A stretch of 58,611 nucleotides of DNA from Nitrosomonadales bacterium (GTDB lineage Bacteria; Pseudomonadota; Gammaproteobacteria; Burkholderiales; Gallionellaceae), in assembly GCA_016223025.1 (NCBI GenBank), contig JACRPU010000053.1:1-58611 (forward strand), in the 5' to 3' direction. The notes beneath the pieces were generated by a model, which was not told the origin of the DNA, did no database searches, and saw only the letters and a program-made list of their open reading frames with translations. The translations under genes and the position numbers were made by a program. Below, one piece after another: positions 8,952-10,725 of the stretch (positions are counted from its first letter, which is position 1; the number at the start of each line of letters is the position of its first letter).

Positions 8952-9962
<1,011 letters not shown>

Positions 9963-10014
9963 TCAAAAAATTGGGTTTGCCGGAACTATTTTAGAATTCC
10001 TTTATCCTATTGCT

Positions 10015-10124
10015 CAGATGACGTGAGTCATCTCCCGTTTCTCCTCCCTGAGCGGGTAGTCTTAACCCTACTGTTAAGACATCTTATGCCCCTGGCTTCC
10101 CCCTTTAGCCAGGGGCGTTTTTTT
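10015..10124 (+). ncRNA. Candidate small RNA convergent with engB (Spot 42/ErsA-like position)
   Basis: About 110 bases on the + strand, between two minus-strand genes, fold as four consecutive hairpins: 10017-10032 (6-bp stem, GTGA loop), 10034-10056 (stem CCCG/CGGG with loop CTCCTCCC at 10041-10048), 10059-10080 (perfect 8-bp stem) and a terminator at 10088-10124. A possible -10 TATCCT lies at 10003-10008; the nearest -35-like TTGCCG (9977-9982) is spaced too far at 20 bases. In enterobacteria spf (Spot 42, about 109 nt), and in Pseudomonas ErsA, lie beside yihA/engB; position, length and terminator shape agree here. Homology and function are inference; the exposed anti-Shine-Dalgarno loop suggests an mRNA-pairing RNA. 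Confidence 0.6.
10088..10124 (+). terminator. Intrinsic terminator of the candidate small RNA
   Basis: A 10-bp GC-rich stem (10088-10097 with 10107-10116), a 9-base loop and G plus seven T at 10117-10124. The T-run follows the stem on the + strand only, so it terminates a + strand transcript, not engB or hemB. Confidence 0.8.
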
Positions 10125-10128
10125 CCTG

Positions 10129-10725
10129 CTACCCGGCACTCAGCCAGCTCCCGATCACTGCTTCGGCCTCATCCACACCGGTTTTTTTCAGGCTGGAAAA
10201 CAACTGTGCCGAGCAATGCGGGAAATGCTCCGCGAGGTGGTATGTTACACGATTCAACGTCAGGGTTGCTTGCTGGCGGCTCAGCTTGTCCGACTTGGTA
10301 AGCAGAATATGCACCGGCCTGCCGGTAAGCGCAAACCACTCCAGCATCTGCTCGTCCAGATCGGTGAGCGGATGGCGCGCATCCATTATGACAACCAGCC
10401 CACACAAGGCTTCCCTGGTTTGCAAGTACTGACTCAACAGCCCTTCCCAGTGCGCTCGAACATCCGGCGGCACCTTGGCGTAACCGTAACCGGGCAAGTC
10501 CACCAGAAAATTGTGGTTTCCCAGTGAAAAATAGTTGATGTGCTGGGTGCGCCCCGGCGTCTTGCTGGTGTAGGCCAGCCTGGTGTGGTTGGCCAGCGTG
10601 TTGATGGCGCTGGACTTGCCCGCATTGGAGCGCCCGGCAAAAGCCACTTCCCTGCCGCCGTGCGCCGGCAGATCGCGCAGATGGTTGACTGTGGTAAAAA
10701 ACGCCGCCTTGGAAAACAACCCCAT
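10129..10725 (-). CDS. engB: Ribosome biogenesis GTP-binding protein EngB/YsxC/YihA
   Basis: 198 residues, starting [20 protein letters not shown]. It shows the G motifs of the EngB GTPases: G1 GRSNAGKSS, the [14 protein letters not shown] region (G2), G3 DLPGYGYA, G4 TKSDKL and G5 FSSLKKTG. The family is required for 50S subunit assembly. The ATG overlaps the hemL stop by one base (TAATG), so translation is coupled to hemL. An in-frame opening extends far upstream across hemL in another frame, but the GTPase homology begins at this ATG. Confidence 0.96.

Follow-up and report, generated by a model that had tools for sequence, protein, structure and literature searches.

An anti-hemB small RNA with conserved sigma-E-type promoter boxes beside engB in a Gallionellaceae bacterium, and its probable relatives at the polA/engB locus

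The plus strand of positions 10015–10124 in the 58,611-nucleotide stretch of DNA analysed here (the window) is a genuine small regulatory RNA gene with four hairpins and its own terminator. It belongs to anti-hemB, a known but little-studied family, and is preceded by a conserved sigma-E-type promoter that is new here and that, judged from its boxes, would be read by RpoE. Family membership, structure, the conservation of the promoter boxes and synteny come directly from computation. We give a probability of roughly 0.7 to the reading that the anti-hemB sRNA of this organism would be driven by RpoE, end at its own terminator and, presumably assisted by Hfq, repress target mRNAs via its apical loop. 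The value of the locus lies in this promoter, in an extra 5′ hairpin and in a lineage of polA/engB-linked RNAs that extends across the class.

The gene lies between two minus-strand genes identified with NCBIfam profiles, in the arrangement ← → ←. Its divergent neighbour is hemB (porphobilinogen synthase, 8952–9953, NF006762, 499.5 bits) and its convergent neighbour is engB, also called yihA or ysxC (ribosome biogenesis GTPase, 10129–10725, TIGR03598, 233.9 bits; the engB start codon is our own reading). The predicted transcript is of about 110 nt, with a 5′ end placed from the −10 box and a 3′ end in the T run. A preliminary description of this DNA had put at the 3′ end of engB, and convergent with it, an sRNA gene of four successive hairpins closed by a plus-strand terminator, and both its position and its fold hold: the minimum free energy of 10015–10124 is −49.6 kcal/mol versus −24.4 ± 2.9 kcal/mol in 200 dinucleotide shuffles, all of them less stable (z = −8.56), and the terminator is found by a terminator scan as well as by the fold. 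From 5′ to 3′, the RNA consists of a 5′ hairpin (AGATGAC/GTCATCT, 10016–10033), a core hairpin (CCCGTTTCTCCTCCCTGAGCGGG, 10034–10056) that carries the apical loop CUCCUCCC (10041–10048), a third hairpin (GTCTTAAC/GTTAAGAC, 10059–10080), and a Rho-independent terminator (10088–10124) made of the stem GCCCCTGGC/GCCAGGGGC, a C-rich loop, and a G followed by seven T at 10118–10124.

The hairpins are also conserved in relatives, as the same description had expected. In a structure alignment of 36 orthologs from the family and the order, 93.9% of cells are paired; both partners have changed in 20 of the 28 pairs (none of 500 shuffles is as high, and slid controls give 4–8), and the covariation score of 0.355 is reached by none of 500 shuffles (slid controls 0.046–0.121). 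Because the orthologs pair and covary far above the shuffles, the hairpins are not a product of chance. Both-side changes affect all seven pairs of the 5′ hairpin, a count favoured by the omission of two sequences (L084 and L088) for a poorly aligned 5′ arm, six of the seven pairs of the third hairpin, where four TAG-type rows (L001, L009, L019, and L023) were kept although misaligned by one base, and five of seven in the terminator. The other two sequences left out of the initial 40 were L097, whose truncated contig gave a wrong offset, and L074, a near copy of L073. The core hairpin is the most conserved part, with 100% of its cells paired and five of its seven pairs devoid of any variation. 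Among 55 family loci, the columns of its CUCCUCCC loop, a candidate anti-Shine-Dalgarno seed, are 95–100% identical, and UUUCUCCUCCCUGAGCG is nearly invariant (91–100% per column).

The Rfam model RF02837 (anti-hemB) matches 10031–10124 over its full length, including the core hairpin, at 60.4 bits, and is the sole match above a gathering score in a cmscan of the whole window. Since this score exceeds the gathering cut-off (49.5 bits), the RNA is a member of anti-hemB. The preliminary description had taken a conserved sRNA at this locus to be new, a view that gives way to the existing Rfam family and to its member ncS04, already detected in Burkholderia cenocepacia. ncS04 is a plus-strand RNA of 105 nt, with a 5′ end from dRNA-seq, a 3′ end from RACE and a Northern blot; it copurifies with Hfq and is flanked by BCAL0264 and BCAL0265 in the orientation ← → ← (PMC5688073, PMC4603805). 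The parts of these two papers accessible to us mention neither a sigma-E promoter nor a tested function for it, nor relatives farther afield, and PMC3521395 mentions anti-hemB once, in a table. What the window adds to the anti-hemB structure is the 5′ hairpin with its compensatory changes, which falls outside the Rfam model, whose match starts at 10031. Two other candidates were rejected: the Toxic small RNA/double-hairpin family RF02278 (ncS27, S17) is absent from the 19 Rfam matches of the window RNA up to an E value of 10, and a Neisseria sigma-E sRNA is not the same gene, its neighbours being the counterparts of NMB1826 and of dnaE (accessible part of PMC3240639).

Upstream of the RNA, a −35 box (GGAACTATTT, 9982–9991) and a −10 box (TCCTA, 10005–10009, 17 nt after GAACT) have the GAACY...TC form that we take to be that of sigma-E/AlgU promoters. 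GAAC (9983–9986) is identical in all 55 family loci and the T at 9987 in 98% of them; in the −10 box, TC is 98% and the A at 10009 100% identical, and the commonest family version is TCTGA (37 of 55 loci), from which the TCCTA of the window departs. Positions 9988–9991 are 75–98% identical, and 12 of the 13 spacer columns (9992–10004) only 35–67%, the remaining one reaching 82%. We counted the pattern GAAC[TC]-N16–18-TC within the 88 nt that precede the core hairpin. It occurs in 55/55 family loci (antisense 0, shuffle mean 1.4, maximum 5) and in 57/69 order loci (antisense 2, shuffle mean 1.7), the latter being 70 loci (30 best-scoring and 40 hand-picked across GTDB families) from 192 matched genomes, one without anchor. 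It is likewise present in 54/68 class loci, the best-scoring 68 of 122 genomes matched outside the order of the window (antisense 0, shuffle mean 1.6), and in 7/13 family paralogs (antisense 0, shuffle mean 0.13; 15 loci, two without anchor). When loci were picked by the core hairpin alone (80 of 102 stretches, minus two with short upstream regions and three near-duplicates), 60 of 75 carry the pattern (antisense 1, shuffle mean 2.2), and 7 of the 15 pattern-less ones read GAAACTT instead by eye.

The genome encodes one RpoE above the TIGR02939 cut-off (313.7 bits), and its own gene is preceded by GAACT-N17-TCCAT, with the same spacing as the GAACT-N17-TCCTA of the sRNA. RpoE is above this cut-off in 39 of 40 family genomes, and a similar box lies upstream of rpoE in all 19 family genes that could be parsed (30 rpoE loci, 11 unparsed). 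A matrix trained on these 19 promoters passes, at the 99% shuffle threshold, 32/55 family, 11/69 order, and 33/68 class sRNA loci (antisense 0). Since it passes only part of the sRNA loci, the sRNA and rpoE promoter groups are not identical beyond their core boxes; as a promoter detector the matrix was rejected as too specific. Genome-wide, GAACT with a 17-nt gap to the −10 box has 10 sites, one of them the sRNA promoter and five belonging to a single repeat found at the starts of contigs, a count that carries no weight because the reversed-pattern control gave 47 matches.

RF02837 has matches in 58 of 60 family genomes (55 above cut-off), in 192 of 250 order genomes (164 above) and in 124 of 274 class genomes, class being taken here as GTDB Gammaproteobacteria, betaproteobacteria included, since the ErsA and sX13 matches considered below fall in it. 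To an RNA so widespread in the order, the conserved sigma-E-type promoter gives a specific, testable role. Among the best 68 matches outside the order, engB is convergent downstream in 39 and polA lies upstream on the same strand in 37; both hold for 24 and at least one for 52, whereas 12 have neither in the stretch examined. At four more (L182, L188, L200, and L209), with polA and engB on either side, the RNA is inverted relative to the other loci. Of 70 places fetched in the family, 55 are beside hemB and 15 are paralogs elsewhere (L030, L036, L039, L047, L052, L055, L057, L059, L062, L064–L066, and L068–L070). The paralogs have varied upstream regions, with an AT-rich block common to L036, L047, and L059 and TTGACA...TAATAT-like sequences in L052 and L069, as though a single core RNA had come under different inputs. 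In some class genomes the sRNA is repeated in tandem, with two to four copies, at L142/L195 (G472 contig 33, between polA and engB), at L154 (G562) and on G563 contig 3. This betaproteobacterial core hairpin is present in metagenome-assembled records titled Klebsiella pneumoniae (L316) and Bordetella parapertussis (L368), of which at least the first title looks mislabelled.

Related RNAs, mostly scoring below the Rfam cut-off, are thus located at polA/engB in many class lineages, which raises the question of their kinship with two sRNAs of the same neighbourhood. ErsA sits in the polA-engB gap of Pseudomonas (PMC8575079) and is strictly sigma22-dependent and responsive to envelope stress, according to the accessible part of PMC7565897. 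The likeness to ErsA seen in the preliminary description gains support as resemblance and fails as Rfam membership: the ErsA model RF01719 scores 23.0 bits on the window RNA versus a cut-off of 50, which excludes it from ErsA in the strict Rfam sense, and the sigma-E (AlgU)-type promoter of ErsA is present at the window RNA as boxes. Run on the 274 class genomes, the same model gives one match above cut-off and nine below. All nine have engB convergent downstream within 1 kb, six coincide with an RF02837 match, and three (L144, L148, and L150) read CCCGCTYTTCCTCCCTGAGCGGG behind a GAACYTT...TC box. The match above cut-off (L141) has polA upstream; the CUCCUCCC core hairpin is missing from it, and the 9 kb examined contain no engB. 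The sX13 model RF02232 reaches 21.6 bits on the window RNA versus a cut-off of 50, so that membership fails here too. In the class it has two matches above cut-off (L413 and L414), both with polA upstream and with no sigma-E-type box by eye, and ten below, five of which are at polA/engB and three of which coincide with RF02837 matches among those listed. The array on G472 contig 33 is matched by all three models.

In an Rfam scan of 20 hand-picked class loci, RF02837 attains its cut-off at three (L153, L154, and L161), and at the remaining ones the RNA is labelled by no other Rfam family. A model built from our 36-sequence alignment (R1) and run on 38 hand-picked loci matches 37 of them at E ≤ 1, most intermediates scoring 30–70 bits; L143, L146, L147, L149, and L212 obtain 18–22 bits, no better than a probable chance match (L208, 22.1 bits). 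At the ErsA-type locus R1 gives 15.8 bits (E 0.1) and RF02837 no match at E ≤ 5. The link between anti-hemB and the intermediates is strong, and those between the intermediates and ErsA and between the intermediates and sX13 are moderate and rest much on position. As far as these links reach, the window RNA, probably a relative of Pseudomonas ErsA, belongs most likely to a single old sRNA lineage linked to engB/polA, together with ErsA and probably sX13. We incline, with some reserve, to the further reading that a single sigma-E-driven sRNA beside engB/polA was ancestral to the class and that anti-hemB, ErsA, sX13 and, beyond what sequence evidence covers, Spot 42 descend from it, the locus keeping an anti-ribosome-binding-site RNA while its promoter and loops drift. 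If so, this would be an old non-coding arm of the envelope-stress response that stays under the Rfam cut-off in most class genomes (14 of the 124 with matches are above it). We found no literature linking sX13, ErsA/Pseudomon-1, and anti-hemB as a polA-engB superfamily and nothing on point about a betaproteobacterial RpoE envelope-stress sRNA at hemB/polA; most subscription papers lay outside the coverage of both searches, and the superfamily link may be in print.

The same RNAs might instead have arisen separately, C-rich hairpins followed by a terminator being widespread among sRNAs and the gap between polA and engB a favourable site. Such convergence would agree with the weak direct scores of RF01719 and RF02232 on the window RNA, with the behaviour of the ErsA-type locus, which escapes RF02837 and scores under the chance-like L208 with R1, and with the remark in the accessible part of PMC3771888 that sRNAs with C-rich loops resemble one another in structure between distantly related bacteria. 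Chance placement, however, would scatter matches over the genome, whereas all nine sub-cut-off ErsA matches are near engB, six of them exactly at an RF02837 match, and half of the sub-cut-off sX13 matches are at polA/engB; moreover, anti-hemB, the intermediates and the ErsA locus have their promoter type in common. We consider convergence a serious but unlikely explanation.

As to what the RNA does, the complementarity of its loop to ribosome-binding sites, suggested in the preliminary description, stands with CUCCUCCC at 10041–10048, and its pairing role is a prediction. AGGGAGGAG occurs 10 times in the genome, once as the antisense of the sRNA gene itself and, by our own reading, once as a clear Shine-Dalgarno site, that of soxY (SoxY identified by PF13501, 111 bits). 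In the soxY ribosome-binding site CAGGGAGGAGAAATG, 13 bases are perfectly complementary to the sRNA loop (contig 2 of the same genome; L253 position 1500, minus strand); this is the best exact site in the genome and, as far as the sites were read, concerns one gene in a single genome. In the family, CAGGGAGGAG-N1–8-ATG is found in 34 of 80 genomes, and no family-wide target recurs among the 30 sites read of 46, at least one of which (L307) is the antisense of an sRNA paralog. Named by our own reading of their translations, propionyl-CoA-synthetase-like (L305, L306, and L310) and murE-like (L281 and L287) genes recur among these 30, and an LpxR-like outer-membrane protein appears once (L284). 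Within one genus, the propionyl-CoA-synthetase-like gene repeatedly has the seed complement CAGGGAGGAG at its ribosome-binding site, and similar sites exist in G582 and G591. As regards envelope-protein mRNAs, the exact-seed sites point to soxY in the genome itself and to scattered genes elsewhere. PMC5688073 predicted targets for its sRNAs with CopraRNA, and its main-text section on them names none for ncS04.

We propose that RpoE transcribes the sRNA from position 10015 or close by and that its own terminator ends the transcript, which would accumulate under envelope stress. The sRNA would bind Hfq, with which ncS04 copurifies, and its exposed UUUCUCCUCCCUG loop may reduce the translation of several mRNAs by pairing with their G-rich Shine-Dalgarno regions. 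In this way the sRNA would provide the sigma-E response with a repressing arm that is non-coding, as ErsA does in Pseudomonas, and, if this is true, anti-hemB would supply such an arm to the envelope-stress response of betaproteobacteria. Our confidence in this RpoE-driven explanation is lowered because ncS04 showed no significant change in any of the seven conditions of the qPCR table (PMC5688073, section 7) and because 20-min stresses, including SDS membrane stress and H2O2, largely failed to induce the sRNAs of that study, as far as its accessible part reports.

These observations would suit a constitutive riboregulator, that is, the same RNA with the same pairing to ribosome-binding sites, transcribed with the housekeeping sigma factor or with another ECF factor that uses the boxes in place of RpoE. 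Some lineages do have upstream regions without the box that look sigma70-like by eye (e.g., L124, L133, L160, and L166), as do the family paralogs L052 and L069; the lineages without a box, several of them sigma70-like, suggest that the regulatory input was exchanged more than once. Against constitutive expression stand the GAAC invariant across the family next to a largely variable spacer, the box spacing, equal to that upstream of rpoE, and a sigma70-type promoter scan of 9500–10600 that found no site. We regard it as rather unlikely and retain transcription by RpoE as the preferred reading.

Less probable again is a role in cis, the one behind the name anti-hemB, in which the transcript would act as an antisense or interfering RNA on hemB, opposing read-through from engB into hemB and tuning haem synthesis. 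The promoter and the hemB start are within about 60 bp of each other, and in the core-hairpin set (n = 75) hemB is the divergent neighbour at 68 loci, as in the window, with engB convergent at 65, both genes at 60, and neither at 2. Yet elsewhere in the class the RNA keeps company with polA and/or engB (the 52 of 68 loci given above), hemB being near just one other locus, 2 kb away, and the near-invariant part of the molecule is its loop, which an antisense role does not demand. We therefore hold this cis role to be improbable. Least credible of all is a true Spot 42 ortholog that regulates carbon use under cAMP-CRP: Escherichia coli spf likewise lies next to engB/yihA, convergent with it and about 110 nt long (see also the accessible part of PMC3295665), but the Spot 42 model RF00021 gives the window RNA 19.9 bits versus a cut-off of 80, RF02837 (E ≤ 5) and R1 (E ≤ 1) have no match at spf, the one weak RF02837 match in the E. 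coli control genome being elsewhere, and sigma-E-type boxes precede the window RNA. Spot 42 expression is said to be repressed by CRP.

Among known systems, the window RNA thus compares with Spot 42 of Enterobacterales and Vibrionaceae in genomic position, orientation and length and differs from it in sequence, so that of the Spot 42 likeness first proposed only the position stands, membership is rejected, and the link is one of position only. The alphaproteobacterial ar14 (RF02344) has CCUCCUCCC loops in a similar hairpin, but its model scores 28.9 bits over 10026–10123, below the cut-off of 58.8. The sX13 of Xanthomonas has three stems with C-rich loops that act on G-rich motifs near translation starts, and the accessible part of PMC3771888 names Spot 42 and the alpha-r7 sRNAs at the polA locus, none of them similar to sX13 in sequence, and asks whether further bacteria carry sRNAs at this locus. 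The window RNA resembles sX13 in its C-rich loops, and through polA linkage and intermediates matched by both the sX13 and RF02837 models; it differs in its low model score, in the sigma-E-type box, of which none is seen by eye at the two sX13 loci above cut-off, and in that Hfq is dispensable for sX13 in Xanthomonas (PMC3771888). With Pseudomonas ErsA it has in common the engB side, a sigma-E-type promoter, C-rich loops, a similar length, and intermediates matched by both models, although it has hemB in place of polA upstream and hence lies outside a polA-engB gap. The closest counterparts are RF02837 and ncS04, in which the core hairpin, its loop, the third hairpin, the terminator, and the orientation relative to the neighbouring genes are all as in the window RNA, the difference being that the Rfam model is without the 5′ hairpin that the window RNA has.
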